From contig DASQAT010000046.1 of assembly GCA_035635555.1 (NCBI GenBank), positions 384,075 through 423,612 on the forward strand: a stretch of DNA of 39,538 nt, given 5' to 3'. This document shows, in pieces, positions 2 through 30,130 of the stretch (the stretch's first letter is position 1; each line of letters begins with the position of its first letter). Both the position numbers and the translations under genes were made by a program. This stretch comes from Candidatus Dormiibacterota bacterium (GTDB lineage: Bacteria > Acidobacteriota > Polarisedimenticolia > Gp22-AA2). The notes below the pieces were generated by a model. The model was not told where the DNA came from. It ran no database searches and saw nothing but the letters and a program-made list of their open reading frames with translations.

Positions 2-505
2 CTGGCCCTGGGGGGGCGCGGTCTGCTCTTCCTCGGCACCTCGGGAGCCGGCAAGAGCACCACGGCACGTCTGTGGAAGGAGCGCGGCGGCGTCACGATC
101 CTTTCGGATGATCGGATCGTCATACGAGCCGAAGGGGACGGCTACCGCATCTACGGCACTCCGTGGCACGGCGACGCGGGGTGGGAGACCCCCGCTTCGG
201 CGCGCCTGGACGCGGTGTACATCCTCGATCAGGCGCCGCGCAACCGCATCCTGGAGATCAAGCCCTCCACCGCCGTGGCCCAGATGATGGTGCGCGCCTT
301 CCCCGCGATGTGGGACCAGAAAGGTCTCGAGTTCGCCGTGCGCTTCCTGGCGCGGCTGTCCGAAAGCGTGCCGGTGAGACGCCTGCAGTTCCTCCCCGAT
401 CGAACGGCGGTCGACTGCGTCCTGTCATCCCTGGATGAGGGGGATGCGACGGCACGGGGCAGGGCTCTGATCGAGGGACCCGCCCGCACGAGGGGCGACG
501 AATGA
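2..505 (+). CDS. HPr-kinase-like P-loop protein, 5' truncated
   Basis: The reading frame enters from the left edge, so only the last 167 residues are visible. They begin just before a Walker A motif, GTSGAGKST (visible residues 12-20), followed by a SDDR segment like the post-P-loop strand of HPr kinase/phosphorylase (HprK). The rest matches the short HprK-like proteins that sit beside EPS or RiPP genes, rather than full HprK with its N-terminal domain. The substrate is unknown. A role in carbon catabolite control is not supported, since no HPr or PTS gene is nearby. It ends in an ATGA overlap with the response regulator and opens the visible part of the EPS operon. Family call is good; function is open. 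Confidence 0.75.
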   Translation: MALGGRGLLFLGTSGAGKSTTARLWKERGGVTILSDDRIVIRAEGDGYRIYGTPWHGDAGWETPASARLDAVYILDQAPRNRILEIKPSTAVAQMMVRAFPAMWDQKGLEFAVRFLARLSESVPVRRLQFLPDRTAVDCVLSSLDEGDATARGRALIEGPARTRGDE

Positions 506-939
506 CCCAGATCCTGGTGGTGGACGACGAGCTCGCCATCCGCGAAGTGCTGATCGAGTTCCTGTCGGAGCACGGCTACGAGGCCGAAGGAGCCGAAGAC
601 GGTCAGGAGGCGCTCGAGATGGCGAAGCGTCTCAAGCCCCAGGTCATCCTGCTGGACATCGCCATGCCGGGGATGAACGGCATCGAAACGCTCAAGCGCC
701 TCCGCCAGGCGTCGATCGGGGCGGCCGTCATCATGATCAGCGGACACGCCGATCAGGATCAGGCCCTCATGGCCCTCGATCTGGGCGCCTTCGACTTCAT
801 CCAGAAGCCGCTCGACTTCCGCTATCTCGAGCGGACTCTCCTCGCCAAGATCGTGACCCTCGAGCCGCACGACGAGGGTCGCACGTCCAAGGAGGCCGAT
901 GGTGAGCGCAGACGGAACACCGGACAGAGGAACCGCTAA
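502..939 (+). CDS. Single-domain response regulator (CheY/Spo0F-like)
   Basis: A receiver domain fills residues 2-118: acidic pair D8/D9, phospho-acceptor D52 in LLDIAMPG, S80 at the switch position and K102 in the QKP motif. All residues needed for phosphorylation are present. The last 25 residues are polar, with no DNA-binding domain, so it probably acts by protein contact or passes phosphate on. The start overlaps the previous stop (ATGA), and its 3' end overlaps the next gene by 41 bases. No histidine kinase is coded beside it in this operon; CheA in the neighbouring cluster is a possible but unproven partner. Confidence 0.9.
   Translation: MTQILVVDDELAIREVLIEFLSEHGYEAEGAEDGQEALEMAKRLKPQVILLDIAMPGMNGIETLKRLRQASIGAAVIMISGHADQDQALMALDLGAFDFIQKPLDFRYLERTLLAKIVTLEPHDEGRTSKEADGERRRNTGQRNR
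889..895 (+). promoter_or_regulatory. Ribosome binding site for the GspE/HD-GYP fusion
   Basis: AAGGAGG lies three bases before ATG 899 and six before the adjacent GTG 902. It supports a start inside the end of the response regulator gene and therefore the 41-base overlap. Confidence 0.6.
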
Positions 940-3250
940 AGGGTCCCTGCCCCTGCCCGTCCTTCTCGCGGACCGTCAGGACGTGGCGTTCGTGGCGACC
1001 CCGCGGGGAATCGAGAGCCTGCGCATTCCGCGCCGCTACTGGGGTGCGCAGGTCGGCGTCGTGGCGATCCCCGTCAGCGACGAAGAGGTGCGTGGCGCCG
1101 AGCTGCAACCGCCGTCCGACGCCGGCGCCTGGCCGCGCGTCGTCACGCGGTCGGACCTGCTGGCGCCGGCCCTGTCGCGTCTCATGGGAGGAGATCACAC
1201 CGAGCTGAGCCTGCGGCCGGGTCGCGACGGCCTGAGGGCGACGCTCCTCACCGCAGCCGACGAGGAGCAGCCGTATCCCGTGGCCCCCAAAGACGCGCTC
1301 GGGTTTCTCGCGGCGGTGTTCCAGCATGCGCCACGCGGCGTCGTCAAGACCGCCGGTGGGCGCGCGCGCCGGGTCCTGCTGAGCGTGCGACCGGCGGCAA
1401 GGCCGAACGAGTACCGCGTGCGCATCTCCGGAGTCGTCGAGACGGCCCCACCCGCCACCCTGAACGACATCGGCCTCTCGCCCGCCGTCCTGGAGCTGCT
1501 CCTGGAGAGCCTGGAGCGGCGCGCCGGCATCCTCCTGGTCTCGGGCGGACCGGCAACCGGGCGTACGACGACGCTGGATCTGCTGGCGCGCACGCTGTCG
1601 TCGCGCGGACGCACGGGCGGTCGGATCGGTCCGCGCCTCCGGCCGGCCCTTCCCGAACTTCCCTGGCTCGCCGAGACGCCGGGTGATTGGCCGTTCCCCG
1701 AAAGCCTCATGGCCTCCGCCCCGGAGTTCATCCTGGTGGAGCACCTCGAGGGGACGTCCGATCTGGTCCTGGCCGCCCGGCTGGCATCGACCGGCTGTCT
1801 CGTCCTGGCTGGCGCCCCCGCGGCCGATCCGGAGGCCCTGGCGAGGAGCGTCGCACGCGGGCTGGCGGACGGATCGGCCCCCGCGGTTCCCGTCGCCGTC
1901 CTGGGACAGACGATCGTGCGCACACCCTGCCGCGGCTGCCTGCACTGGAGCACGATTCCCGCGGAGCAGGCGCGGCGACTCGGCTTCCATCGCCGTGATG
2001 TGGACGAGTTCGAACGCAAGGGTGGTCTGCCGATCGCACGGGGCGAGGGCTGCGCCGACTGCTCCCGCACCGGCAGCGCCGGCCTCACCGGCGTGCAGGA
2101 GTTCGTCGATCCCGAGGCGGGAACACTGTCGCTTCCGCGTTTGCGGGAGGAAGGCTGGCGCCGGGTGGCGCAGGGCCAGGTCTCGGTCGAGGACGTCATG
2201 ACCCTGCCCGGTGCCCAGCGACCGATGCGGACCCTGAGAGAGATCCAAGTGCACGCCGGGGCGGGACCCGCGTCGACCGAAGATGGACCCCGGGTGCCCG
2301 GCGAGACCCCGCGCGCCGCGGCTTCACGCGACACCTCATCGCGTGGTGTCGGCGGCACGGCCGCCCCGGAGACACCCTCCGAGCCGGCTCTCGCCGAGGC
2401 GCAGGCACTGGCCCAGATTCTCAAGGACAGCCGCTCCGCGCGCCCGGCCGACGGAAAACGCGTCCTGGCGCTCGCCCAGGTGATCGCTGCGCGCTCGGCC
2501 AGGGACGCGCCGCTCTCGTCTCTCCTGGCGCCGGCAGGCGGCTTCCAGCTGGCCAGCCATTCCGTGAACTCCGGGTTCATCGCGTCGCGCATCTGGGCGT
2601 CGCTTGGCAACGCGGAGGACACACGCCTGGTCCTCCTGGCCCTGCTCCACGACGCCGGAATGGTGAAGGCCGGGACCGATCCCGAAGCCGAGATGCCGGC
2701 GGTTTCCTCCGAGGAGTCGGTCGATCCGACCGGTTCCCGCCTCGAGCCTGGAGCGGTCCTGCGATCGCTTGGTGCCGAGGCAGCGGGGATGACGGAGGCC
2801 GTTCGATCGGTGCACCACCTGATCCGATTCGATCTCCCCAGTGTCGAGGAGCGCGCCGGCGCGGACCAGCGCTCCCAGGTGGTGGCGCTCGCCTGCCTGG
2901 TGGAGCTGCACCGCCACGGGGTGGGGAACGGGCTTCCGATCGACCTGCATGACGTGACGTCCCTCGTCATGGAGCAGCACGGGCGCCGCTTCAGCCCCAC
3001 GCTGTTCCGCGCCCTCCTGAAGGCGGTTCCCATCTTCCCCATCGGCTGCCTGGTCGAGCTGTCCAGCGGTGACCTGGCCCGCGTCGTGTCGTTGAACGAG
3101 GACAACCACTTCCGGCCGCGGGTAGAAATCACCGCCTCCGTTTCGGGTGAGGGGCAGGGAGACCGCCGCGTGATCGACCTGGCGCGCGCGCCGTTTCTGC
3201 ACATCCGCCAGCGCGCCTCAGGGACGACGGCGGAGCGGGTGGCGGTGTGA
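899..3250 (+). CDS. Degenerate GspE/PilB-type ATPase fused to degenerate HD-GYP domain
   Basis: 783 residues. The centre (about 185-445) follows the type II secretion/type IV pilus ATPase fold: P-loop GGPATGRTTT (216-225), a Walker-B-like strand ending VEHLEG (280-285), and a four-cysteine zinc site C344/C347/C385/C388 as in GspE and PilB. The invariant Walker A lysine is arginine (R222), and the GspE His-box segment reads LVLAGAPAAD, without its histidine. A poorly conserved linker (about 450-500) leads to an HD-GYP-like domain (545-745) with H554, H584-D585 and H639-H640 but no GYP triad; its end (FPIGCLVELSSGD) is typical of HD-GYP proteins. I infer a regulatory or scaffolding protein, perhaps nucleotide-sensing, for EPS export rather than a pilus motor. 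No other pilus gene is in the window. Confidence 0.8.
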   Translation: MVSADGTPDRGTAKGSLPLPVLLADRQDVAFVATPRGIESLRIPRRYWGAQVGVVAIPVSDEEVRGAELQPPSDAGAWPRVVTRSDLLAPALSRLMGGDHTELSLRPGRDGLRATLLTAADEEQPYPVAPKDALGFLAAVFQHAPRGVVKTAGGRARRVLLSVRPAARPNEYRVRISGVVETAPPATLNDIGLSPAVLELLLESLERRAGILLVSGGPATGRTTTLDLLARTLSSRGRTGGRIGPRLRPALPELPWLAETPGDWPFPESLMASAPEFILVEHLEGTSDLVLAARLASTGCLVLAGAPAADPEALARSVARGLADGSAPAVPVAVLGQTIVRTPCRGCLHWSTIPAEQARRLGFHRRDVDEFERKGGLPIARGEGCADCSRTGSAGLTGVQEFVDPEAGTLSLPRLREEGWRRVAQGQVSVEDVMTLPGAQRPMRTLREIQVHAGAGPASTEDGPRVPGETPRAAASRDTSSRGVGGTAAPETPSEPALAEAQALAQILKDSRSARPADGKRVLALAQVIAARSARDAPLSSLLAPAGGFQLASHSVNSGFIASRIWASLGNAEDTRLVLLALLHDAGMVKAGTDPEAEMPAVSSEESVDPTGSRLEPGAVLRSLGAEAAGMTEAVRSVHHLIRFDLPSVEERAGADQRSQVVALACLVELHRHGVGNGLPIDLHDVTSLVMEQHGRRFSPTLFRALLKAVPIFPIGCLVELSSGDLARVVSLNEDNHFRPRVEITASVSGEGQGDRRVIDLARAPFLHIRQRASGTTAERVAV

Positions 3251-4647
3251 GCGTGGAACGGGACGCTCTTCCGGTTCTCGAGGCCCTCCTTTCGGACGGC
3301 CACGGAATGCTCGTCCCGGTTCGCGGCCGGAGCATGCGCCCGGCGCTCGTCGAGGGGGATGTCGCGGTGGTCGCGCCGTTCCTCGGTCTCCCCCGCCCGG
3401 GACAGCTCGTCCTGGCGCGCTCTGCCGGAAGCGTACTCGTCCTGCACCGCCTGATCGACGTCGAAATGGGAACAGGCCGACGGATCTACAGGCTGCAGGG
3501 GGATGCGGAGAGCGCCCCCGACACGGGCGTCCTGCGCGAGGATCTGCTCGGAAGGGTGATCGCCGTCGAGCGCGACGGCCGCCGCATGCCCATCGACGAC
3601 CCCTCATTCGATACCCCCGCTGCCGCAAGCCGGCGCGCCCTTGTCCGGCGGGGACGCCGGGTCCTGCGCGCGGTGTCGCTGGTCGTGGCGGTCCTGCTGT
3701 GCGCCCTGGGAGTCGTGGCCGCGCAGGAAGGGACCGCCGCCCCGGCGCCGCAGGAGCAGATGATCGCGCCCGCCGCCGATTACCGCTTCGGTCCGGGAGA
3801 CGTGCTCAGCCTGCGGGTCTGGAACGGCCAGAAGATCGACGAGCTGAAGCTGACGGTGCAGACCGACGGCGAGGCGTTCCTGCCGGTCATGGGAATCGGG
3901 TCCATGCAGGTGGCGGGCCGGACGATCGTCGATCTCAAGAAGGACCTCGAGGCGCGCTTCCACACCATCTACAAGGAGACCCACATCGAGCTCTTGATCA
4001 CCAAGTACGCCGGGCATCGCGTCAGCCTGATGGGGGAGGTGAAGACCACCGCGCGGGCCGAGAGCGGCCCCGGGAACTGGGCCCTGGAGGGACCGACGCG
4101 GCTGGTGTCGTTCCTGTCGGCGCACGGCGGTCCGGCCCAGGAGGCCGATGTCATGCGGATCCAGTTCATCCGCCCCACCGGCGAGCGCCGGGAGCTGAAC
4201 CTGTTCCGCGCCGTGTTCCAGGGGGAGGAGACCGATGACCCGTGGCTGTCGAACGGCGATCTGATCTTCATCCCGTCGCTCTCCATGGGCAACCGCAAGG
4301 TGTTCGTCCTGGGTGAGGTCAACCAGCCGGGGGTGGTCAACATCATCGACAAGATGGGCCTGGTCGAGGCGATCTCGCGGGCGGGGGGCTTCACCCAGAA
4401 GGGATACCTCAAGGGGGTGGTCGTTCTGAAGCGGGGCCCGGACGGCCACGCCGCGATCACCCTCGCCAACTTCAAGGAGATGTTCAAGGAAGCGGACATG
4501 AAGGCGGACGTGGCGCTGCAGCCGGGCGACATCGTGTTCGTGCCGCGGCGCGCCATAGTGACCCTGCAGGAGGTGATGTCGATCATCGCGCCGGCGCTCG
4601 GCATCATCGAGTCGATCTACATCATCGACAATTTCAGGAAGAACTGA
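3247..4647 (+). CDS. SipW-like peptidase domain fused to Wza-type polysaccharide export protein
   Basis: 466 residues. Residues 15-112 resemble S26B (SipW/Sec11-type) signal peptidases: serine in GRSMRP (S29), VLHRLI with H67 at the general-base position, and a GD...D stretch (D86, D92). A hydrophobic helix (140-158) ends in a signal-peptide-like AAQ. It is followed by a polysaccharide export domain (177-260, starting YRFGPGDVLSLRVW), two SLBB-type domains (about 265-345 and 352-435) and a C-terminal amphipathic helix (438-462) like the outer-membrane helix of Wza. The frame is open throughout, so the two parts form one polypeptide unless an internal start near the membrane helix is used. A GTGA overlap couples it to the previous gene. 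It should form the outer-membrane EPS channel; the peptidase role is unknown. Confidence 0.85.
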   Translation: MSVERDALPVLEALLSDGHGMLVPVRGRSMRPALVEGDVAVVAPFLGLPRPGQLVLARSAGSVLVLHRLIDVEMGTGRRIYRLQGDAESAPDTGVLREDLLGRVIAVERDGRRMPIDDPSFDTPAAASRRALVRRGRRVLRAVSLVVAVLLCALGVVAAQEGTAAPAPQEQMIAPAADYRFGPGDVLSLRVWNGQKIDELKLTVQTDGEAFLPVMGIGSMQVAGRTIVDLKKDLEARFHTIYKETHIELLITKYAGHRVSLMGEVKTTARAESGPGNWALEGPTRLVSFLSAHGGPAQEADVMRIQFIRPTGERRELNLFRAVFQGEETDDPWLSNGDLIFIPSLSMGNRKVFVLGEVNQPGVVNIIDKMGLVEAISRAGGFTQKGYLKGVVVLKRGPDGHAAITLANFKEMFKEADMKADVALQPGDIVFVPRRAIVTLQEVMSIIAPALGIIESIYIIDNFRKN

Positions 4648-4648
4648 C

Positions 4649-6838
4649 ATGAGCGCCCAGTACGATCTCAACCTTCAGGACTATCTGCGGATCCTGCGCC
4701 GTCGATGGAAGATCGTGGCCGGGTGCTGCCTGGCGCTGGGGCTCCTGACCCTGCTCCTGACGCCACGCGCCGGGTCCGTCTACGAAGCGACGGCGCGCGT
4801 CAAGTGGAGCCGCACGGACAGCGTCACGGGTCTGTTCCTGGAGGCCTTCACCTGGAGCCCCGGGGACGACCTCGCCACGCAGGCGCAGATCATCACCAGC
4901 AGGCCCGTGGCCCTGAAGGCGGCGCAGCGTCTCGGGCGCATCCCGGTCTCCACCACCATCGAGAACGTCCTGGCCGACAAGACGTTATCGGCGGCTCTCG
5001 ATGCCATGCTGGCCAGCTACACGGCCAAGCCGATCGACAACACCAGCCTCATCGAGATCAGGAGCGCCTGCCCTGGACCGGACGAGGCGGTGCAGCTCGT
5101 GAACGCGGTCATGCAGGAATACATCATCGGGCACACGTTCGAGCGCAACCGCCAGGCGATCGAGGCGCGCGAGTTCGTCGAGAGACAGGTCGCCGAAGTC
5201 AGCGCGAAGCTCCGGGCCGCCGAGGAACAGCTCACCCGCTTCAAGGAAGCCAACGTGGGAGCGAGCATGCCCGACGCGAAGGAGATCCAGTACTTCCAGG
5301 ACGAGGCCGCGCACACCGAGGCGCGGCTGGTCGCACTGGAGCACCTGAGCGACCTGCTCGCCCACCCCGGAGATCCGGGCTCTTCGCCCGAACTGCTCCT
5401 GGTCGACCTGCCGGAGGAGGGGCTGGGCGGGTTGCGGCAGGAGCTCGCGAGACTCGAGGACAGCAAGCGACAGCTCCTCGCGTTCATGAAGGACGATGCC
5501 CCCGAAATCCGGTCCATCAAGGACCAGATCGACGTGCTCACCGGCCGGCTGCGGCGCGAGACGACCACCGCCCTCGACCTGATGCGCGGCCGCAAGCGGG
5601 AGCTCACCTCGAAGCTGGCCCGCTTCCCGCGCGCCGAGCAGACGCTGCTCGAGCTGCAGCGCCAGGTCCAGGTGAACGCCGAAGCCTACGAGATGCTGAT
5701 GCGCAAGCATCAGGAGGCCCTGATCAAGGAGGCCGACAAGGTGCAGGAGCTGAGCGTCGTCGAGGAGGCGACGGCCGCCGTCCCGAGACACGCGCCGGGG
5801 AGGCTCCTGCGATCGCTGGTCGGTCTCATCGTCGGTCTGCTCCTCGGGCTGGTGGCGGCCTTCCTGGCGGAGACTCTCGACACCTCGATCGGCAGCATCG
5901 AGGACGTGGAGCAGTACCTCGGCCTGTCGGTGATCGGCGTCGTGCCGCACATCGACCCCGACGCCACGCGACGCGACATCCTGCAGCGCAACCCGGCCCT
6001 GGCCTCCGACCCGAACCTGGAGGGTCTCGGCGCCCTGGTGACGCAGTTCGCGCCGCAGTCGCCCGCGGCCGAGGCCTTCCGCTCGCTGCGCACCAACATC
6101 GAGTTCTCCCGGATCGGCAAGGCGGGCCGCACGTTCCTGTTCACCTCCGCCTCCCCCAGCGAAGGCAAATCCACGACCGTCGCCAACCTGGGAGTCGCGA
6201 TGGCCCAGATGGGAATGAAGACGCTGGTGTGGGATTGCGATTTGAGAAACCCCTCGCTCAGCCGCCTGTTCGGCGTCCCGCGCGAGCCCGGGTTCACGCA
6301 CGTCGTGCTGGGCATGAACCGGCTGGACGACGTCCTGCACCGATTCTCGGAGGTGTTTCTCGGGCGCGTCGACATGCGCTCGATGCTCACCTCCGCGGGT
6401 CTTGAGAATCTCCGGATCCTCACCGCGGGGGCGCTGCCGCCGAACCCCTCCGAGCTCCTGGCGTCTCCCCTGTTCTCCGATTTCATCGTCGAAGTGGCCT
6501 CGAGGTTCGACGTCATCCTCATCGACTCGCCGCCGATTCTCCCCGTGACCGACGCCGTGGTCCTGTCGACGCGTGTGGACGGCGTGATCCTGGTCTACCA
6601 GCTCGGGCGGATCGGCCGGGCCGTCCTGAAGAGGGCCAAGACGCATCTCGACAACGTGCATGCCGCCATCCGCGGGATCGTGCTGAACGATGTCAAGGCG
6701 GAGGTCAGCACCTACACCGCGGAGATGCAGTACATCTACCAGCGCTACGACAAACAGCCGCAGGATGGAGGGGACACGGCGCCCCGCCAGGCTCCCGCTG
6801 GCCGCCCCGAGGCCAAGGCGGCCGGCGGCGAACGGTAG
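4649..6838 (+). CDS. Wzc-type chain-length regulator and tyrosine autokinase (BY-kinase)
   Basis: 729 residues. Wzz-type domain with TM1 (21-38), a long periplasmic coiled coil (about 165-375) and TM2 (about 388-408). The cytoplasmic BY-kinase domain has Walker A SASPSEGKST (500-509), Walker A' LVWDCD (526-531) and Walker B VILID (622-626). A C-terminal tyrosine cluster (Y689, Y695, Y697, Y700) is the expected autophosphorylation site. It controls polymer length and pairs with the Wza-type channel made one base upstream. All catalytic motifs look intact, so this is an active kinase by sequence. No separate low-molecular-weight tyrosine phosphatase is in the window. Confidence 0.93.
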   Translation: MSAQYDLNLQDYLRILRRRWKIVAGCCLALGLLTLLLTPRAGSVYEATARVKWSRTDSVTGLFLEAFTWSPGDDLATQAQIITSRPVALKAAQRLGRIPVSTTIENVLADKTLSAALDAMLASYTAKPIDNTSLIEIRSACPGPDEAVQLVNAVMQEYIIGHTFERNRQAIEAREFVERQVAEVSAKLRAAEEQLTRFKEANVGASMPDAKEIQYFQDEAAHTEARLVALEHLSDLLAHPGDPGSSPELLLVDLPEEGLGGLRQELARLEDSKRQLLAFMKDDAPEIRSIKDQIDVLTGRLRRETTTALDLMRGRKRELTSKLARFPRAEQTLLELQRQVQVNAEAYEMLMRKHQEALIKEADKVQELSVVEEATAAVPRHAPGRLLRSLVGLIVGLLLGLVAAFLAETLDTSIGSIEDVEQYLGLSVIGVVPHIDPDATRRDILQRNPALASDPNLEGLGALVTQFAPQSPAAEAFRSLRTNIEFSRIGKAGRTFLFTSASPSEGKSTTVANLGVAMAQMGMKTLVWDCDLRNPSLSRLFGVPREPGFTHVVLGMNRLDDVLHRFSEVFLGRVDMRSMLTSAGLENLRILTAGALPPNPSELLASPLFSDFIVEVASRFDVILIDSPPILPVTDAVVLSTRVDGVILVYQLGRIGRAVLKRAKTHLDNVHAAIRGIVLNDVKAEVSTYTAEMQYIYQRYDKQPQDGGDTAPRQAPAGRPEAKAAGGER

Positions 6839-6842
6839 CATC

Positions 6843-8225
6843 GTGTCCGCCGCGCCCGGCGCCGTCGGCGCCCTCCCGGCCCGGAAGGCCGCGCTCCTCT
6901 CAGGTCTCCTGGGATCGCTTCTCGTCCTGTCGCTCTGGGTGACCCGCGCTCCCCTCGAGGTGCCGGTCGTCGCGACCGTGGCCGCCGTGCTGTTTCTGGC
7001 GACCCTCCTGCACGCGGAGGCCGGGCTGGTCATCCTCATCGCGTCGATGCTCCTGTCGCCGGAGCTCCCTCTCGGGGGAGCCGGCGGCGGCGGTCTGGAG
7101 GGAAGTCGTTCGGTCATCCTGAGGACCGAGGACCTGGTCCTGCTCCTCGTGGGCTTCGCGTGGGTGGCGCGCATGGCGATCCACAAGGACCTCGGGGCGA
7201 TTCGGCGGACGCGCCTGAACGTCTGCATCTTCGCCTTCTCGGCCTGCTGCCTGCTCTCGACGCTCATCGGTATCGAGACCGGGCGCGTGCGACCTCTCCT
7301 GGGCCTGTGCTTCGTGGCGAAATACGTCGAGTACTTCATCATCTTCTTCATCACCGTGAATTACGTCCGCACGGGGGCGCAGCTCCGCCGGCTTCTCCTG
7401 GCCGTCCTCGTCACCGCGGCGCTGATCGCCGCCTACGCCTGGTGGCAGATCCCCTCGGGGGTCCGCCCGTCGGCCCCCTTCGAAGGACCCGAGGGAGAAC
7501 CCAACACACTGGGCGGCTACCTGGTGCTGGTCTTCAGCGTCGCCTGCGCGCTGGCCCTCACTCTGCCCGGGGAGATGCGCCGTCTCAGGCGCGCCTCCGC
7601 CCTGCTCTCCCTGTTCGTGATCCCGCCTCTCCTGGCGACCCTGTCGCGCAGCTCCTGGATCGGACTGTCGGCGTCGCTTTTCATCCTGGTGTTCCTGAGC
7701 CCGAAGAGACGCACCCTCATCGGCGCCGTCATCGTGGCCTCGACCCTCCTGTTCTTCGTGCATCCGAAGAGCATCGAAGATCGTGTCCTGTACACATTCC
7801 AGGGCGAGGACCCGTCGGCTCAGGCCGGACGGTTGAAGCTCGATCCGTCCTCATCGGCCCGTCTGTCGTCCTGGGGCGACGCGCTGCGAGGCTTCGTGCA
7901 GCACCCGCTGGCCGGGTGGGGCATCACCGGCTACGGATTTCTCGACGCTCAGTATTTCCGCATCCTGGTGGAGCTGGGCGCCCTGGGCCTGCTGGCCTTC
8001 TTCCTCCTTGTCGGCTCGGCCGCCACGAGCTTCCACCGCGCCTACCTGACTCTTCCCGATCCCCTGCACCGCGCCCTCGGACTGGGGATGACCGCGGGAC
8101 TCGCGGGGCTCCTCGGGCATTCGGTCGGGACCAACACGTTCATGCTGATCCGGATCATGGAGCCGTTCTGGCTCTTGACGGGGCTGGTCGTCGCCTCGCT
8201 CTCCTTCGCGTCGGAGACCCCGTGA
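6843..8225 (+). CDS. O-antigen ligase/polymerase (Wzy/WaaL-like) membrane protein
   Basis: 460 residues with about 11 hydrophobic segments and a large extracytoplasmic loop (about 205-365). The segment RLSSWGDALRGFVQHPLAGWG, followed by an invariant-looking ILVELGALGLL helix, is the hallmark of the Wzy_C family. It should polymerise or ligate undecaprenyl-linked repeat units in the periplasm. The GTG start at 6843, four bases after the BY-kinase stop, is preferred: a longer open frame exists upstream but would overlap the Wzc tyrosine tail by about 150 bases. It ends in a GTGA overlap with the flippase. Ligase and polymerase cannot be told apart from sequence; a Wzy role fits the Wzx/Wza/Wzc set. 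Confidence 0.85.
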   Translation: MSAAPGAVGALPARKAALLSGLLGSLLVLSLWVTRAPLEVPVVATVAAVLFLATLLHAEAGLVILIASMLLSPELPLGGAGGGGLEGSRSVILRTEDLVLLLVGFAWVARMAIHKDLGAIRRTRLNVCIFAFSACCLLSTLIGIETGRVRPLLGLCFVAKYVEYFIIFFITVNYVRTGAQLRRLLLAVLVTAALIAAYAWWQIPSGVRPSAPFEGPEGEPNTLGGYLVLVFSVACALALTLPGEMRRLRRASALLSLFVIPPLLATLSRSSWIGLSASLFILVFLSPKRRTLIGAVIVASTLLFFVHPKSIEDRVLYTFQGEDPSAQAGRLKLDPSSSARLSSWGDALRGFVQHPLAGWGITGYGFLDAQYFRILVELGALGLLAFFLLVGSAATSFHRAYLTLPDPLHRALGLGMTAGLAGLLGHSVGTNTFMLIRIMEPFWLLTGLVVASLSFASETP

Positions 8226-9850
8226 CGCCGCCGCGCGTGCCAGACCCTGGGCGCCGGGCGCCGGTCTCCGTCGAGCGGCGCGCCGCCGCGCGCGGAGTCG
8301 CCTGGAGCGGCGTGGAATCTCTGACGTCGGCGCTGGTCGGTCTCGTCCTCACGCCTCTCATCGTGAGCACGTGCGGCCTCGAGGGTCTCGGGATGTGGGC
8401 CGCCTCGTGGTCTCTGGCGCACACCACGAATCTTCTCGACCTGGGTGTCGGCTCCTCCTATACGCGGTTCACCTCCCAGTCGATCGCCCTGTCCGACGTG
8501 GCCAGGCTCAACCGGACGCTGGCCGCGGGGACCGGCTTCCATCTCGCGATCGCGACCGTCGTGGCCTGCCTGGCATTGTTCCTTGGCCCGGCCGCGCTCG
8601 GGATCGTGGCGCCGGCCGGTCCGCTCGCCCCCCATGCCCGGACCGTCTTCGGCTGCACGCTCGGGACCGTTCTCCTGCGCACGACCCTTTCGGCCTACCG
8701 CGGGGTGGTGTCGGGAGCGCAGAGAATCGACGCCCTGGGCCGGATCGGCGCCGCCGCCTCGCTCGTGGAGGGCATGGGGGCGGCCGCTGCGCTTGCCTCG
8801 GGCTGGGGCCTCTCCGGCATGGCGGTCAATTCGCTCCTGGTGGGTGCGGGGGCGTCGCTCGTCGAGGCCCGCCTGGCGCACCGCCTGGTTCCCGGCCTGC
8901 GGGTGGTGCCGTTCCTCTCCGGCCGCGAGGAGTGGCACGACCTCTTTTCGTTCGGACTCAAACTTCAAATCGTCCGAGCCTCCGAGATTCTCACGGCGCA
9001 TGCCCCGCGGCTGATCCTGGCGGCTGGCGCCGGTCTTGCGCCGGCCGGACTCTATGACCTGGGTGCGCGGGTCGCGGGGGTCCTGCAGATCGCCGCTCTG
9101 CCTCTTCCGGTGATCCAGCCGATCGCCGGACGCCTGGCGGCGCTCGGCGATGCCGCACGATTGCGCGCGCTCGTAGAGCGTGCCACGCGCTACGTCGCGC
9201 TCCTGGCGATACCCTGCGCCTCGCTCGTCCTTCTCGATGCCGGGTCGATTCTGAAGGCGTGGACCGGACAGAACGTTCCCCCGGTCGCGGCGTCGACGGC
9301 CCGCCTGCTCGCCCTGACGCTCCTGTGCGGGTTCGTCGCTTCACCTCTGCGTCTGGTCCTGCGCGGCTGTGGCCGGGCGGGACCCGAGGCGCTGGCGGCG
9401 CTCACGGGCTCCCTGCTCAGCGTCGCGCTGGCGATCCTCCTGTCTCCCGCCTGGGGGGCCGTGGGGGTGGCATCGGCGGCCCTGTGCGGCGCGGCCCTGG
9501 CCTCTGTGGTCCTGGCCATCGGGGCGCGCGGAGCGAGCCCCGGTCTTGCAGGGACCGCCCTGCGAAACCTGCCTGGACCGATTCTCGCCTCAGGTGCGGG
9601 ACTGGTCGCGGCGACGATCACGCGTGCGCTCTCGGGGGACCAGGACCTCGTCGCGGCGACGCGGCTCGAGGCGCTGTTCCGGCTTCTCCCGGAAGGGATT
9701 CTGCTCTGCAGCGTGACGATCCTCGTCGCCTTCCTGGCCGGCGCGCTCCTGCGTCAGGACCTCGAGGACCTCGCCGCCGCCCTCCTCCCGGGGCGTCTGC
9801 GGGCCGAGCCGGAGCCGGCGGAAGTCCCGGGACCCAGGGGGGGCGCATGA
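8222..9850 (+). CDS. Wzx-type polysaccharide flippase (MOP superfamily)
   Basis: 542 residues, hydrophobic almost throughout with 12-14 predicted membrane helices. After a 25-residue polar, arginine-rich N-terminus comes the pattern typical of polysaccharide transporters (GVAWSGVESLTSALVGLVL, then the LGVGSSYTRF loop). It should move lipid-linked repeat units across the inner membrane, between the cytoplasmic glycosyltransferases and the polymerase. The GTG start overlaps the previous stop (GTGA); the frame is open further upstream, but that stretch lies inside the ligase gene. The C-terminal 30 residues are polar. Family assignment is firm; the substrate is unknown. Confidence 0.85.
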   Translation: MTPPRVPDPGRRAPVSVERRAAARGVAWSGVESLTSALVGLVLTPLIVSTCGLEGLGMWAASWSLAHTTNLLDLGVGSSYTRFTSQSIALSDVARLNRTLAAGTGFHLAIATVVACLALFLGPAALGIVAPAGPLAPHARTVFGCTLGTVLLRTTLSAYRGVVSGAQRIDALGRIGAAASLVEGMGAAAALASGWGLSGMAVNSLLVGAGASLVEARLAHRLVPGLRVVPFLSGREEWHDLFSFGLKLQIVRASEILTAHAPRLILAAGAGLAPAGLYDLGARVAGVLQIAALPLPVIQPIAGRLAALGDAARLRALVERATRYVALLAIPCASLVLLDAGSILKAWTGQNVPPVAASTARLLALTLLCGFVASPLRLVLRGCGRAGPEALAALTGSLLSVALAILLSPAWGAVGVASAALCGAALASVVLAIGARGASPGLAGTALRNLPGPILASGAGLVAATITRALSGDQDLVAATRLEALFRLLPEGILLCSVTILVAFLAGALLRQDLEDLAAALLPGRLRAEPEPAEVPGPRGGA

Positions 9851-22845: not shown

Positions 22846-24867
22846 ATGTGCGGCCTGGCGGGCATCCTCAGTCTGTCCGGCGCCCCCGTGCGGCACACGG
22901 CGCTGCGCGCCATGACCGAGACGCTCCGTCATCGCGGCCCGGACGAGGGGGCAGTCATCCTGATTGCCGACCGGAGCGACCCGTCGGGAACCCCCGGGCG
23001 CGAGAGGCGCGGCGAAGCGCCGGTCCCCACGAGACTCGGCCTCGGCCACCGGCGCCTCAGGGTGATCGATCTGAGCGGCCGCGCCGCGCAGCCGATGCGC
23101 TCGCAGTCGGGCGCCTGGCTCGTCTACAACGGCGAAATCTACAACGCGTACGAGTTGCGCAGCGAGCTCGAAGCGCGCGGCGCGCGCTTCCGCTCGCACA
23201 GCGATACGGAGGTCGTGCTCGAGGCGCTCGACGCCTGGGGTCTGGAGGCCCTGCCGCGATTCAACGGGATGTTCGCCCTCGCCTACTGGGACCCGCGTGG
23301 GCGACGCCTGATCCTGGCGCGCGATCGTTTCGGCGAGAAGCCCCTGTACTACGCGATCGCCGCGGGGCTCCTGATGTTCGCGTCCGAGCTGGGGGCGCTG
23401 GCTCGAAACGGCGACGTACCGCTCGAGATCGATCCCGAGGCGCTCGAGCTCTATCTCACATTCGGATTCGTCCCGGCCCCCTGGTCCATCTACAGGGGCG
23501 TGCGCAAGCTGCCGCACGCCTCGTACCTCGAGGTGCTGCCGGACGAGGCGCCCAGGGTGGGGCGCTATTATCGGCTGGAGGATCACCGTGGCTCCCGCGT
23601 CCCCGACCATCCGGAGGACGCGGTTCGCGCCACCCTTCTGGAGTCCGTTCGGCGGCGTCTGGAGGCCGACGTGCCGCTCGGCGCCTTCCTGTCCGGAGGA
23701 CTCGATTCGACCGCCGTCGTCGCCTGCATGCGCCTGTCGCGCGGCGCGCCGCCTCTCACCTACTCGATGGGGATCCCGGATCTGCCTTACTTCGACGAAT
23801 CGAGCCGGGCCCGCAGGACCGCCGGAATCTTCTCGACGCTGCATCACGAGGTGCGGGTCGATGCGGCGGCGTTGCGGGCGGAGATCCCGTTCGTGCTCGG
23901 GCGGCTCGACGAGCCGTTCGCCGACTCCTCGGCCCTCGCCTCCTCGATCATCTCCCGGGCCGCGCGTCGCGACCTGACCGTGGCCCTCTCGGGTGACGGG
24001 GGGGACGAGCTGTTCGGCGGATACCGCATGTTCCGCGGCCTGGCGGCTCACAGACTCCTGCGGCGCCTGCCGCCGCGCGCCGCAGCGGCCCTGGCGGCGC
24101 TCCTGTCCCCGCTGCCGGCGCGCCAGGGGGGCGGCACGCCCGGCGTCGTGCGGCAGGCGAGGCGGCTCCTCGAGGGGGCGACGACCGATCTGGCCGCCGC
24201 CCACACCGCCTGGATGTCGGTGTGCGGACGGGGGGCCCGCCGGGCGCTCCGGCCGGCGGTTCCGGACGAGGACCTCGGGGTGTCGCTCCTGGAGGAGCGC
24301 TACCGGAGGTTCGGCGGCGGGCTGGACGCCGCGCTCGCCGTCGAGGTCGACCTGCCCCTGCCCGACGACATGCTGGCCAAGGTGGACCGCACGAGCATGG
24401 CCCACGCTCTGGAGGTCCGGGCACCCTTCCTCGATCCCGCGCTCGTGGAGCTGGCGCTGTCGCTCCCCTCACGGACCCACTTCGGTCTTTTCTCCGGCAA
24501 GCGTCTCCTGCGGCGGGCGATCCGGGACCTGGTTCCGCCCCACGTCCTGCGGGCCCCCAAGCGTGGCTTCGAGGTGCCCGTTGGTGACTGGCTTTCGGGG
24601 CCTCTGCAGCCGCTGTTCAGCGAGATCGTGTCACCCCGCGCGCTCCACGAACTCCCGGGCCTCGATCCCGGCGTCCCCCGGGCCTGGCTCGACGAGCATT
24701 GCGCGCGGGCCCGCGACCACGGGCGGGCCCTCTGGAGCCTGTTCGCGCTCTGCTACTGGATGCAGGGACCCCGCCGCGCGCACTCCGGGGGAGCACGCGA
24801 AGCGGTGCGTCAGGAGAGGGGATGCTCGAGCAGCGCGGCGACCGTCTTGAGCAGCACGGAAGGCTGA
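22846..24867 (+). CDS. asnB: AsnB-type glutamine-dependent amidotransferase (asparagine synthetase family)
   Basis: 673 residues. Cys2 is the Ntn nucleophile of the glutaminase domain (about 2-235), which also has YNGEIYN and SHSDTEV. The synthetase domain has the PP-loop FLSGGLDSTAVVA (about 282-294) and a later SGDGGDELFGGYR segment. A charged insertion (about residues 45-62) is unlike E. coli AsnB. Such genes at the end of EPS loci often amidate sugar acids or surface glycans rather than make free asparagine; that role is inferred from position. The gene follows its neighbour with no spacer. Its last 58 bases overlap the convergent cheY-like gene, and the final 30 residues look unconserved. 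Confidence 0.88.
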   Translation: MCGLAGILSLSGAPVRHTALRAMTETLRHRGPDEGAVILIADRSDPSGTPGRERRGEAPVPTRLGLGHRRLRVIDLSGRAAQPMRSQSGAWLVYNGEIYNAYELRSELEARGARFRSHSDTEVVLEALDAWGLEALPRFNGMFALAYWDPRGRRLILARDRFGEKPLYYAIAAGLLMFASELGALARNGDVPLEIDPEALELYLTFGFVPAPWSIYRGVRKLPHASYLEVLPDEAPRVGRYYRLEDHRGSRVPDHPEDAVRATLLESVRRRLEADVPLGAFLSGGLDSTAVVACMRLSRGAPPLTYSMGIPDLPYFDESSRARRTAGIFSTLHHEVRVDAAALRAEIPFVLGRLDEPFADSSALASSIISRAARRDLTVALSGDGGDELFGGYRMFRGLAAHRLLRRLPPRAAAALAALLSPLPARQGGGTPGVVRQARRLLEGATTDLAAAHTAWMSVCGRGARRALRPAVPDEDLGVSLLEERYRRFGGGLDAALAVEVDLPLPDDMLAKVDRTSMAHALEVRAPFLDPALVELALSLPSRTHFGLFSGKRLLRRAIRDLVPPHVLRAPKRGFEVPVGDWLSGPLQPLFSEIVSPRALHELPGLDPGVPRAWLDEHCARARDHGRALWSLFALCYWMQGPRRAHSGGAREAVRQERGCSSSAATVLSSTEG

Positions 24868-26165: not shown

Positions 26166-26771
26166 TCAGCGCCGGCAGCGGCGGGCCATCTCCAGAGCGA
26201 TCTCCGAGCGTGGCAGGACCAGGTCCGCGAGACCGGCCCTTATCGCCTCGCGCGGCATGCCGAACACGGCGGCGGTCTCCTCCGACTCCGCGATGGTCCG
26301 CCCGCGCCGATCCTTGATGGCGCGCAGCCCCTCGACACCATCCCCCCCCATTCCGGTCATGAGGATGCCCAGGGAGCGCGGGCCGAACAGCTCCGCCGCC
26401 GAGACCATCAGGAGGTCCGCGGAGGGGGCGTAGCGCTCCGCCGGCCCCCGCGGCCTGACGTGGAAGACGATTCCGGGGGGAAGGCGGTCGAGCGTGGTCT
26501 GTCGTCCGCCGGCGGCGATGCAGATCGTGCCCGGCAGGAGGCGGTCCCCGTCCTTCGGCTCGGACACCGGCAGGGGGCAGAGCCGGGCGAGACGCTCCGC
26601 GAACAGGGTGGTGAAGCGTCCCGGCATGTGCTGCGCCACGAGGATGGCTGTGGTGGTGCCGCGCGGCAGGCGCGGCAGGATTTCGAGGAGGGCCGGCGGA
26701 CCGCCGGCGGAGCAGCCGATGACGATCAGATCCGCCGGGCGGGCATCCCCCACGTCCTGCGGCGCGCTCAC
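26166..26771 (-). CDS. cheB: Stand-alone CheB methylesterase/deamidase domain
   Basis: 201 residues covering only the CheB catalytic domain. The catalytic triad is complete: S21 in IGCSAGG, H48 in VAQHMPG and D144 in TGMGGDG. The N-terminal receiver domain of classical CheB is absent, so activity cannot be controlled by direct phosphorylation of this protein. It should remove methyl groups from receptor glutamates, but no receptor and no CheR lie in the window. ATGA-type 4-base overlap with the zinc-ribbon receiver gene upstream. A 94-base gap follows before the GAF gene. Confidence 0.88.
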   Translation of the reverse strand: MSAPQDVGDARPADLIVIGCSAGGPPALLEILPRLPRGTTTAILVAQHMPGRFTTLFAERLARLCPLPVSEPKDGDRLLPGTICIAAGGRQTTLDRLPPGIVFHVRPRGPAERYAPSADLLMVSAAELFGPRSLGILMTGMGGDGVEGLRAIKDRRGRTIAESEETAAVFGMPREAIRAGLADLVLPRSEIALEMARRCRR

Positions 26772-27727
26772 GAGGACGATTCGGCGGACGGGCGGGAGAC
26801 CGCGGCGCGCTCCAGGGTGATCTGCTCCTTCAACGCCTCGGCCAGGACCGCCATCCTGTCGGGCATGCCGGGGAAGCGCCGGCCGATGAGGTCCTTGGCC
26901 TGGATCATTTCTTCGCGGAACGCTTCCGAGAAGCGCCGCTCTTGGACGGCGCGTCTGAATTCCTGGGGATGGTAGATCTTGAGATCGGAGACCATGATCC
27001 GCGCCAGACGGTGGATCTCCGAGCGCGGATCGATCGGTTCGTCCGCCCCGTTGGCCGAGAGCACCCCAACCTCTGTCGTGGAGGGGGTTCCCAGGGGGGA
27101 GGGGCCGGAACCCTCCGTCGCACCGGCACGCCTCCCCGCGGCGGCCGGCGCGGCAGCGACGCCCAGGAGAGTCGCGAGACGCGCCCGCAGCTGGGCCGCG
27201 GGGATCACGTCCTCGAAGTAGTCGTCGGCTCCGTAGAGATTCCCCGGGTGCCGCACGAACCGGTCCGACTTGAACACCGACCCCACCAGGGCCACACGTG
27301 TTCTCTTGAGGTCCGGGCTTCCCTTCACACCCTCGCAGACGGCCACGCCCAGGAGTCGCGTCATGTACACGTTGAGCACCATGAGATCGGGATGGTGCGC
27401 CACCGCGAAGCGGAAGGCCGCCTCACCGTCACCGGTGACCTCCACGCGGCACCCCAGGGACTCCAGGGTCCGTCGCACCAGGTCACGGAACTCGCGAGCC
27501 TCGTCCCCCACCAGGACGAGCGGTGAGGTGCGTCCCGCCCGGCCGGCGGTCTGCTGGGGGCGCGCGGCTGCCGGGGAGGCCTGGGCCGGGGGGCCCGGAC
27601 CGCCGGCGTGGATGTTCTCCTCCGTCGCGAAGACGCGGTTGCAGCCCCCGCAGCGGACACGGCGGGGTGCGGTCCCGCCGTCGGGGATCCGGTAGTTCCG
27701 CGCGCAGCCGGGGCAGACGACGATCAT
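26768..27727 (-). CDS. Zinc-ribbon plus pseudo-receiver protein (FrzS-like layout)
   Basis: 319 residues. N-terminal MJ0042-type zinc ribbon with C5, C8, C26 and C29. After a Pro/Ala linker comes a receiver-like domain (68-187) in which the phospho-acceptor position is asparagine (N118 in VLNVYM), while K152 and the acidic D74/E75 remain. A second variable linker leads to a helical C-terminal region (230-310). The asparagine predicts a phosphorylation-independent, protein-binding receiver, as in the pseudo-receiver of Myxococcus FrzS. ATG 27727 overlaps the cheW stop by four bases; the open frame upstream of it lies within cheW and was not used. Confidence 0.8.
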   Translation of the reverse strand: MIVVCPGCARNYRIPDGGTAPRRVRCGGCNRVFATEENIHAGGPGPPAQASPAAARPQQTAGRAGRTSPLVLVGDEAREFRDLVRRTLESLGCRVEVTGDGEAAFRFAVAHHPDLMVLNVYMTRLLGVAVCEGVKGSPDLKRTRVALVGSVFKSDRFVRHPGNLYGADDYFEDVIPAAQLRARLATLLGVAAAPAAAGRRAGATEGSGPSPLGTPSTTEVGVLSANGADEPIDPRSEIHRLARIMVSDLKIYHPQEFRRAVQERRFSEAFREEMIQAKDLIGRRFPGMPDRMAVLAEALKEQITLERAAVSRPSAESSS

Positions 27728-28116
27728 GACATCCCCCGCAGGAGCGCGGCGATGTCCAGGGGGGCGACCTGATTCGAACGGGGCGCGACCCCCGACACCC
27801 GGTCCACCACCAGCCCGAGCCGATCGTCGGCCGACCGGACGACGATGACCTGCGCCGCCTCTCCGGACGGGCGCGGCGGGAGGGCGAGGCACCGGCGCAG
27901 ATCGAGAAGGGTCACCATCTGTCCTCGCACCGGGATGATTCCCTCCACCGCCGGAGCGGTCCCGGGCACCCGTGTCGGTGCACGATGACGCATGATTTCG
28001 ATGACCGTATCGACCCGCACGGCGAACTCGCGCCCTTCGATCGTGAACAGCAGCACGTGATCGCGGGCGCCATCGCCGGGGACGGCCGCATCGCCATCAG
28101 GCGTCGACGTCGGCAT
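27724..28116 (-). CDS. cheW: CheW-like coupling protein
   Basis: 130 residues, a single CheW domain: HVLLFTIEGREFAVRVDTVIEIM, then VEGIIPVRGQMVTLLDLRRCL and LGLVVDRVSGV, all typical. It should couple CheA to receptors in the signalling array. ATG 28116 lies inside the end of cheA (20-base overlap), and the 3' end overlaps the next gene by four bases. The frame stays open further upstream in cheA, but translation of that part has no CheW-like sequence. Confidence 0.9.
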   Translation of the reverse strand: MPTSTPDGDAAVPGDGARDHVLLFTIEGREFAVRVDTVIEIMRHRAPTRVPGTAPAVEGIIPVRGQMVTLLDLRRCLALPPRPSGEAAQVIVVRSADDRLGLVVDRVSGVAPRSNQVAPLDIAALLRGMS

Positions 28117-30130
28117 TCTGGTCTCCGGACATGAGCGTCTCGGGGTCGAGGACGAGAACGGCGGTCGCGTCCCCGAGGTCCGCGGCCCCGGCGACTCCCG
28201 GCAGGTCCCCGAGGAAGCGACCGATCGGCTTGACCACCACCTCCTGGCGGCGGACGAGACCGTCGACGACGATTCCAAACTTCCGCCCTTCGCCGCCGGC
28301 GACGATTGCGTACCGCCCGAGCGTCGCGCGGTCGGTCGCACCTCCCCCGGCGCCGGACAGGAGGCGGTCCAGCCGCAGGAGGGGCAGCTGTCCGTCCTGC
28401 CGCTCGTACAGGAGACCTCCCTCCGACTCACGCACACGTGTGCCATCCAGCCGCAGGTTTTCGCGGATCGAGGCGATCGGGATGGCGAAGCGTTGATCAC
28501 CCGAGCGCACGATGATCGCGGGCACCAGGGACAGACTGATCGGCACCATGACCGTGAACGTCGTCCCGCGTCCTTCGGCCGATCGCACGACGATCGAGCC
28601 CTTGAGCGCTCTGATCGCCCGGCGGACCACGTCCATGCCGACGCCGCGACCGGACACCGTGCTGACGTGGCTGGCGGTGCTGAACGCGGGACGGAAGATC
28701 ATCTCGTGCGCCTCCTCCCGGCTCATCTCGCGATCCGCGGGCCACAAGCCCCGGGCCGCGGCGGCGGCCTCGATCTCCCGGATCGCGATGCCACGCCCGT
28801 CATCGATGACGTCGATGACCACGGACGGGCCGCGCCGGAAGGCGCTCAGGACGAGTTGCCCGCGTCGGGGCTTCCGTCGACGCTCGCGTTCCTCCGGAGA
28901 TTCGATCCCATGATCGATGGCGTTGACCACGAGATGCATCAGGGGCGTGGCGAGGCCATCCATCACCGACTTGTCGATCTCCGTGTCGGCCCCGAGTGTG
29001 TGGAGGTCGATCTCTTTCCCCGACGCCCGTGCGGCCCGCGCCACGGCGCGGCCGACCTTGCGGAACTCCTGATCGAGCGGGACGAGGCGGGCCTCGATGG
29101 CGCCGCGTTGCAGCGCGCGCAGCCGGGCCAGAACGATCCGCAACAGCGGTCCCATCTGGCGCGTGCTGTGGTCGTCGGGATGCGCCTCGCGCACGGCGGC
29201 GATCTCGCGCTCCAGGGAGGCGAGGGCGATCGACAGTGCGTCGACCTGTGACAGGACCCCGTCCAGACGCGCCACCGGGACCCGGAGCGACTGGGTCGCT
29301 CCACGCCGATCCGCGGCGGCCTCCGTCCCCGGAGCGGATCCGTCCGGCGACGCGGCCTCTCCCGTCGCGGCGGACGACGGACCGGAGACGACGCGGCGAT
29401 CCTCCACGATGGTCCGCGGCAGGTCATCGTCCGAGAGAAGTCTCGGGCTGGCCACGAGGAGATCGAAGGCGATCCTCTCGTCCCGTTCCCCGACGACCGG
29501 CAGCGTGCTGATGAGCTCGCCCACTTCGCCCACGCGCCGCGCGACGTTCTGGAGATCCTCCTCCAGGCTCTGCGGGTCGGGGCGAACGCGCACCAGCGCC
29601 AGGTGGAATCCCTGCGACAGGCACTGTCGGAGGCGTCTCTCCTCGTATTCGGTCAGGGAGGCGCGGATCCTCTCCGGCAGGCCGGTCGTCCCCGGACGAT
29701 CGTCCTGCGGGATGATGATTGCGGCGGCGGCGCGCGCCAGACGGTCGGTCAGCGGACCCAGCCCGGAAAACGCCGCGGATCCGGAGCGCAGGTCGCGCAC
29801 GGCACCGAGCAGCGAGTCGAGCGTGTCGTGCAGAAGGTCGAGGATGGCACCGTCGAGTGATCCGCCCAGGCGCAGACGTGTCAGGAGATCTTCGAGCGCA
29901 TGGGTGAGCGACGCGATCTCCGGAAAGCCCAGGAGCCCCGCGAAGCCCTTGAGCGTATGAGCGCCCCGGAACAGGGTGTTGATCAGATCGAGATGCGGTC
30001 GCCCCGCCTCGAAGACGGCCTCCAGATCGCGTACGGCATCGGAGAGCGCCTCGAGGATCTCGTCCGCCTCGGCGACGAACTCGCGCAGGCTGCGCTCCCT
30101 CTCCGGACGGCCGGACCGCTCGTCAGACAT
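28097..30130 (-). CDS. cheA: CheA-type chemotaxis histidine kinase
   Basis: 677 residues. HPt domain (12-115) with phospho-accepting H58 in GAHTLKG. A P2-like small domain (about 155-240) is followed by a Gly/Ala-rich linker, the dimerisation helices (285-350), and the ATPase domain with the N-box NAIDHG (403-408), DDGRGI (443-448) and GRGVGMD (494-500). A CheW-like domain closes it (about 530-677). All kinase motifs are intact. There is no C-terminal receiver, unlike FrzE. It heads the six-gene chemosensory cluster and should phosphorylate the cheY-like protein and perhaps regulators elsewhere, including the one in the EPS operon. Confidence 0.93.
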   Translation of the reverse strand: MSDERSGRPERERSLREFVAEADEILEALSDAVRDLEAVFEAGRPHLDLINTLFRGAHTLKGFAGLLGFPEIASLTHALEDLLTRLRLGGSLDGAILDLLHDTLDSLLGAVRDLRSGSAAFSGLGPLTDRLARAAAAIIIPQDDRPGTTGLPERIRASLTEYEERRLRQCLSQGFHLALVRVRPDPQSLEEDLQNVARRVGEVGELISTLPVVGERDERIAFDLLVASPRLLSDDDLPRTIVEDRRVVSGPSSAATGEAASPDGSAPGTEAAADRRGATQSLRVPVARLDGVLSQVDALSIALASLEREIAAVREAHPDDHSTRQMGPLLRIVLARLRALQRGAIEARLVPLDQEFRKVGRAVARAARASGKEIDLHTLGADTEIDKSVMDGLATPLMHLVVNAIDHGIESPEERERRRKPRRGQLVLSAFRRGPSVVIDVIDDGRGIAIREIEAAAAARGLWPADREMSREEAHEMIFRPAFSTASHVSTVSGRGVGMDVVRRAIRALKGSIVVRSAEGRGTTFTVMVPISLSLVPAIIVRSGDQRFAIPIASIRENLRLDGTRVRESEGGLLYERQDGQLPLLRLDRLLSGAGGGATDRATLGRYAIVAGGEGRKFGIVVDGLVRRQEVVVKPIGRFLGDLPGVAGAADLGDATAVLVLDPETLMSGDQNADVDA

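Follow-up and report, generated by a model that had tools for sequence, protein, structure and literature searches.

Here, we present an analysis of a gene in a 39,538-nucleotide stretch of DNA from Candidatus Dormiibacterota bacterium (GenBank assembly GCA_035635555.1, contig DASQAT010000046.1, positions 384,075 to 423,612 of the forward strand), which is placed in the Acidobacteriota by GTDB. This whole stretch is referred to as the window. The gene encodes a protein in which an S26B-like peptidase domain precedes an outer membrane polysaccharide export (OPX) protein similar to Wza, and it lies between a cassette resembling those for ribosomally synthesized and post-translationally modified peptides (RiPPs) and a cluster of genes for exopolysaccharide (EPS) synthesis and export (Table 1).

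Table 1. Features of the fusion gene and its neighborhood (window coordinates, unless a contig is given)
Feature	Position	Strand	Basis or remark
S26B-like peptidase-OPX (Wza-like) fusion, 466 aa	3247..4647	+	Open reading frame call; fused frame conserved in 7 genomes
S24/S26-fold peptidase domain, aa 1-118	3247..3600	+	Pfam PF00717, alignments, AlphaFold2, Foldseek/VIA
Basic linker, aa 119-138, net charge +6 ahead of the hydrophobic segment	3601..3660	+	Fast-evolving, frame always open
Single hydrophobic segment, aa 139-157	3661..3717	+	Hydropathy; matches N-terminal signal region of unfused OPX relatives
OPX part, aa 175-466, Poly_export and SLBB domains, Wza-like	3769..4644	+	PF02563, PF10531, PF22461
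Precursor-like gene, 63 codons	G000:C46:383433-383624 (L056 12434-12625), 450-641 bases left of the window		Between radical SAM and kinase genes
HPr-kinase-like peptide kinase, C-terminal part; gene begins left of the window	2..505	+	GxxGxGKS and DD motif
Single-domain response regulator	502..939	+	PF00072; in place in 5/6 orthologous loci
Degenerate ATPase of the GspE/PilB type; tetracysteine motif, HD domain at the C-terminus	899..3250	+	PF00437, PF01966
Wzc-type polysaccharide co-polymerase/tyrosine autokinase	4649..6838	+	Pfam, NCBIfam
Wzy/O-antigen ligase family protein	6843..8225	+	PF04932
Wzx-type flippase	8312..9850	+	PF13440/PF01554

A signal peptidase-like domain and an OPX protein share one reading frame

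A preliminary description of this DNA, made from its letters alone, had recognized one frame joining an S26B-like domain, a membrane helix, and a full Wza-like protein, and the open reading frame (ORF) together with the Pfam and NCBIfam searches upholds this layout. In Pfam, the protein matches Peptidase_S24 with 25.8 bits (cut-off, 23.3), Poly_export (PF02563) with 47.2 bits (cut-off, 28), and SLBB_2 with 66.6 bits (cut-off, 27); the Peptidase_S24, Poly_export, and SLBB matches share one frame. In NCBIfam, residues 19-105 give weak matches to archaeal signal peptidase I and SipW that fall below the cut-offs, and residues 176-454 match Wza-like proteins. The ORF starts with a GTG codon that overlaps the TGA stop of the preceding gene, and a start/stop overlap with the upstream gene (GTGA or ATGA) is present in all six genomes read. 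The catalytic residues named in the preliminary description (S29, H67, and D86/D92) are correctly positioned; S29, H67, D86, and D92 are invariant across six aligned fused orthologues and are also present in the seventh (G005). Moreover, S29, M30, P32, H67, R68, G85, and D86 are the same in all of 12 further relatives, which are either unfused or have other fusion partners and mostly come from other phyla.

The window derives from a family of eight genomes of uncultured "gp22" Acidobacteria from soil and groundwater, whose named relatives in GTDB also include genomes from groundwater and sediment. Because the named relatives are metagenome-assembled genomes and all the genomes are drafts, protection against artefacts comes mainly from the recurrence of the fusion in several genera. 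We found the fusion in seven of the eight genomes, and these carriers represent four genera. The fused frame is unbroken from end to end in six of them, i.e., in the window's own genome (G000) and in five others (G001, G003, G004, G006, and G007), whose proteins are 59-83% identical to the window protein over the whole length. In G005, the peptidase domain, the linker, and the start of the OPX part lie in one frame, and a frameshift occurs later within the OPX part. This frameshift (L062, about 9590-9640) is accompanied by a short deletion in the OPX part, and an assembly error and real decay are both possible. The locus was not found in the eighth genome (G002), which is 75% complete. The recurrence of the unbroken frame in other genomes rules out a chance or frameshift fusion, and we conclude that the ORF is a genuine fusion of two neighboring functions.

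Among 396 Acidobacteriota genomes, the two-domain order was found only in this family; outside it, no match spanned both domains, and the peptidase and the OPX protein are encoded by separate genes. The preliminary description had left room for close relatives with two separate genes, and none of the family loci has this arrangement. In a tree of S26B domains (110 columns, 68 rows), the peptidase domains of the fusions group in a single clade (support, 100/98), indicating that the fusion has a single origin. Within the peptidase domain, dN (0.13-0.33) is well below dS (0.65-1.4) in every pair compared, arguing for purifying selection on the domain. Although the sequence of the linker changes rapidly, its reading frame stays open in the orthologues. 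We found no description of an S26-OPX fusion, or of a cassette combining PqqD, HprK, and a signal peptidase, in the open-access literature, and a word search did not find "peptidase" in the main text of two OPX surveys (PMC9603273, PMC9601211). Altogether, the fusion is a new layout assembled from known parts.

The peptidase domain is S26B-like

An AlphaFold2 (AF2) model of the peptidase domain, built from 18 sequences, has a mean pLDDT of 88.8. In Foldseek, the top matches of this model were human SEC11A (E 1.7e-4) and SEC11C (E 2.4e-4), followed by LexA, lambda repressor, UmuD, and LepB. VIA-align gave Z 11.2 for LepB (rmsd 2.7, 99 aligned), Z 10.4 for LexA, and Z 8.9 for SEC11C (rmsd 4.5, 107 aligned). 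Consistently, human SEC11C and SEC11A are also the closest solved proteins by sequence (E 1e-5), with the Ser, His, and GD boxes aligned. These comparisons agree with the earlier assignment of the Ser-His arrangement to the SipW/Sec11 type. His67 is at the position of the Lys in LexA and LepB, arguing that the domain is S26B-like. A self-cleaving repressor peptidase of the S24 type (LexA/UmuD), which has a Ser-Lys dyad, was considered and rejected because of this invariant His at the position of the base.

The domain shares with the S26B peptidases (SEC11, SipW, and archaeal signal peptidase I) the fold, the SMxP box of the Ser, an HR replacing the Lys general base, and the GD...D box, and TIGR02228 is among its best sequence matches, together with SEC11C and SEC11A. 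Unlike these peptidases, it scores below the family cut-offs, is joined to an OPX protein, and lacks an N-terminal transmembrane (TM) segment; rather, a single TM segment follows the domain, and the charges around this segment predict that the domain is cytosolic.

The OPX part follows an internal signal-like segment

The OPX part aligns with Escherichia coli Wza (2j58) over 288 residues (E 1.3e-23); the phmmer alignment ends at residue 344 of the 359-residue Wza chain, and Pfam gives no match to Wza_C, the C-terminal outer membrane helix. In the full-length AF2 model, the OPX half has a mean pLDDT of only 58, and this low-confidence model was not used for the OPX part. As in OPX/Wza proteins of classes 1-3 (PMC9603273, PMC9601211), Poly_export is followed by SLBB, and the gene lies upstream of those for Wzc, Wzy, and Wzx. 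Unlike these proteins, the fusion has no N-terminal signal peptide, the signal-like segment being internal; it also has no lipobox, and a peptidase domain lies in front. We considered Cys152 as a lipoprotein cysteine and rejected this reading because a Leu precedes this residue and G005 lacks it.

Among the unfused OPX proteins of the phylum, the nearest ones (G235, G249, G319, G277, G195, G242, and G127) have an ordinary signal-like N-terminal region at the position of the membrane segment of the fusion. Accordingly, the fusion is most simply explained by the joining of an S26B gene to the front of an OPX gene, whose signal thereby became internal. In the nearest unfused OPX protein of G045 (L174 1605-3749), FG-GAP repeats are fused N-terminally in place of the signal region; this locus also holds genes for a nucleotidyltransferase, HprK, PqqD, a radical SAM protein, a precursor-like peptide, S26B, and an HD-ATPase. 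Genes for HD-ATPases are found near those for OPX and Wzc in the unfused loci of G045, G235, and G319.

Based on hydropathy, no hydrophobic segment lies ahead of the peptidase domain, and the clearest one comes after it. In seven of seven orthologues, the net charge is +6 to +7 in the 15 residues before this segment and −1 to −3 in the 15 residues after it. By the positive-inside rule, the peptidase would be cytosolic and the OPX part periplasmic. A possible signal peptidase I site of the AAQ type (residues 158-160) directly follows the segment, and a V/T-x-A-type site is present after the segment in nearly all fused orthologues. The preliminary description had proposed that the fusion may cleave itself at AAQ. 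The charge bias argues against this idea, since the peptidase and the AAQ site are predicted to lie on opposite sides of the membrane. This site is more probably cut by the host signal peptidase I, which could release the OPX part.

A RiPP-like cassette lies upstream of the fusion

The genes upstream of the fusion encode an NTP_transf_5 nucleotidyltransferase, PqqD (PF05402, 53.6 bits), a radical SAM/SPASM protein, a precursor-like peptide, and an HPr-kinase-like protein. Wherever the contigs extend far enough, the orthologous loci keep these genes and the order nucleotidyltransferase-PqqD-radical SAM-(precursor)-HprK-(response regulator)-ATPase/HD-fusion-Wzc-Wzy.

The precursor-like gene encodes MSRNKTRNEAGGRRIYETPALRRVRLVPDEAVLASCKNNATAGPAGPIQKCATNPAVCSHSAS; a Shine-Dalgarno-like sequence lies ahead of it, and it overlaps the start of the kinase gene. 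The precursor is present in seven of seven fusion genomes, with an invariant RVRLVPDEAVLASCK leader and an invariant C-terminal Ser, and its YxxPxL motif reads YETPAL or a variant thereof in all seven. Codon differences are concentrated at position 3 (0.19, 0.17, and 0.44 at positions 1, 2, and 3). Precursors that share this leader pattern, and in most cases end in Ser, are also present in other Acidobacteriota and in a Planctomycetota genome.

In Bradymonadales, YxxPxL has been reported as the leader motif of lasso precursors, and the precursor peptides of lasso clusters are phosphorylated, usually on a C-terminal Ser, by HPr-kinase homologues (PMC10368454); in the case of pseudomycoidin, a nucleotidyltransferase attaches a hexose to that phosphate (PMC8498205). 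The cassette resembles lasso tailoring clusters and SynChlorMet/GeoRSP in having PqqD, an HPr-kinase homologue with GxxGxGKS...DD, NTP_transf_5, YxxPxL, and the C-terminal Ser, while its proteins all score below the SynChlorMet/GeoRSP cut-offs of NCBIfam. In contrast to lasso clusters, it includes a radical SAM/SPASM maturase and an S26B peptidase instead of the B2 protease, and no lasso cyclase was recognized. Specifically, neither a B2 transglutaminase-like protease nor an AsnB-like cyclase was recognized in the 13 kb examined to the left of the window, and the cassette has no other recognized peptidase in this stretch. Within the EPS part of the window, an AsnB-like gene lies at 22846-24867.

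S26B-like domains recur next to RiPP-like cassettes and exporters

In genomes of other Acidobacteriota families and in a Planctomycetota genome (G302, G112, G351, G079, G128, G055, G080, and L121), a separate S26B gene follows the HprK-like gene in cassettes of the order PqqD-radical SAM-precursor-kinase, with the same type of precursor nearby; some of these loci do not have all the cassette genes in the stretch read. The unfused cassette S26B proteins have no clear membrane segment or signal. Other S26B domains are fused to different partners. In G009 (L067 2110-3561), the partner is NTP_transf_5, which parallels the fusion of a nucleotidyltransferase to the B2 leader protease in lasso clusters (PMC8498205), and in G068 (L156 4606-5655), G103, and G080, it is a GNAT acetyltransferase. 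In G029 (L170, about 5340-6300), an S26B domain follows a NodB/DUF3473 polysaccharide deacetylase in one frame.

Fusions to exporters are also found in Phocaeicola/Bacteroides (L125 7956-10007; L127 2499-4553; L131 6146-8218), where the peptidase lies ahead of the membrane domain of a complete ABC exporter; in these loci, a PqqD gene lies just downstream on the opposite strand. In another Bacteroides genome (L122), the peptidase and the ABC exporter are encoded by separate overlapping genes. Separate S26B genes near EPS genes recur in G045, G235/G249/G319, G013, and Sphingobacterium micropteri; in the latter, genes for S26B, PqqD, a nucleotidyltransferase-like protein, an ABC exporter, and a kinase run straight into those for OPX and Wzc. 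Similarly to PCATs, in which a C39 peptidase is joined to an ABC exporter of RiPPs, the fusion has a leader-peptidase-like domain N-terminal on an export protein. However, its peptidase is a serine S26B rather than a cysteine C39 enzyme, and its partner is an outer membrane OPX protein rather than an inner membrane ABC exporter; the S26B-ABC exporter fusions of Phocaeicola/Bacteroides have a PCAT-like layout.

A proposed leader peptidase at the EPS translocon

We suggest, with a probability of roughly 0.55, that the S26B domain is the leader peptidase of the RiPP-like cassette, that it works in the cytosol, and that it is held at the EPS translocon by the signal segment of the OPX part, thereby coupling maturation to export. 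The S26B domain is the best candidate for leader removal because no other peptidase was recognized in the cassette and all the catalytic residues are present. According to this model, the OPX signal sequence became an internal membrane segment that would anchor the cytosolic peptidase at the inner membrane where Wzc and OPX assemble. Cleavage of the modified precursor by the S26B domain would take place close to the conserved VLASCK region, and the fusion would hold this cut at the export site, as with C39-ABC exporters, so that the peptide would be matured beneath the translocon. The general signal peptidase I might later cut after the Ala of the V/T-x-A-Q site, freeing the OPX part for the outer membrane. 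Among the three options offered in the preliminary description, processing of a protein cargo thus fares best, given the candidate precursor just left of the window, which we regard as the putative substrate.

Fusion of a peptidase to an exporter is a classic indication of which enzyme cuts a leader and where. To our knowledge, leader removal lacks an assigned enzyme in many radical SAM peptide clusters, and the locus offers a candidate enzyme-substrate pair. Moreover, the locus links a pathway for a ribosomal peptide with a polysaccharide exporter of the Wzx/Wzy type, and we know of no characterized system in which a RiPP pathway is coupled to such an exporter.

Several observations weigh against a leader peptidase. 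The structure matches indicate fold and not activity; the S26B phylogeny has poor resolution, and the fused domain does not fall within a cassette-type branch; about half of the S26B-like matches from the phylum are not part of such a cassette, as judged from the stretch read; the precursors have no strict small-x-small cut site in common; and the response regulator and ATPase/HD genes separate the fusion from the HprK-like gene, making the adjacency looser than in other families.

The most serious alternative, which we nevertheless consider unlikely, is that the gene encodes only a polyprotein, which signal peptidase I would cut at the V/T-x-A-Q site into a membrane-anchored S26B peptidase and an ordinary OPX protein of the periplasm and outer membrane that do not cooperate. 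Such a cut fits the near-universal presence of the site in the fused orthologues, the fast evolution of the linker, and the ordinary N-terminal signal region at the same place in the unfused OPX relatives. However, a polyprotein leaves unexplained that S26B domains repeatedly occur fused to, or next to, exporters (OPX in this family and ABC exporters in Bacteroides) and that one frame was kept across four genera; moreover, the OPX half of this explanation also fits the proposed leader peptidase. More speculatively, and with considerable doubt, the locus could encode a peptide-EPS hybrid system. The radical SAM protein would modify the precursor, the kinase would phosphorylate its C-terminal Ser, and the nucleotidyltransferase would glycosylate it there, as is reported for pseudomycoidin; after trimming by the S26B domain at the foot of the EPS translocon, the peptide would leave through the OPX channel, either together with EPS or bound to it.

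The catalytic domain of SEC11 is located on the trans side. With SEC11C and SEC11A as the nearest solved relatives by sequence, the S26B domain might likewise face the periplasm and, as SipW/Sec11, process an exported protein or the OPX part itself. We consider this improbable, because no hydrophobic segment precedes the domain, the segment that follows has its positive flank on the peptidase side, and the unfused cassette relatives have no clear TM segment or signal. It is very unlikely that the domain is now non-proteolytic and serves as a tether or sensor joining the peptide cassette to the EPS machine; such a role would account for the recurring association with EPS genes where the genes are separate, but all four residues of the catalytic set are invariant, and purifying selection acts on the domain. 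Finally, the production of two proteins from one frame, in which translation of OPX would begin internally and close to the membrane segment as the preliminary description had considered, is highly improbable. The in-frame ATG, GTG, or TTG codons that several genomes have at 113-118 are not conserved, and between residues 100 and 141, G006 lacks any such codon; the candidates are also not preceded by a Shine-Dalgarno-like sequence, unlike the precursor gene of the same locus.

Other genes downstream of the fusion

Glycosyltransferase genes are also present downstream of the fusion. Beside the EPS cluster, window positions 26166-30130 on the minus strand hold chemosensory-type genes encoding CheB-like, response regulator, and CheA-like proteins, as judged from their translations.

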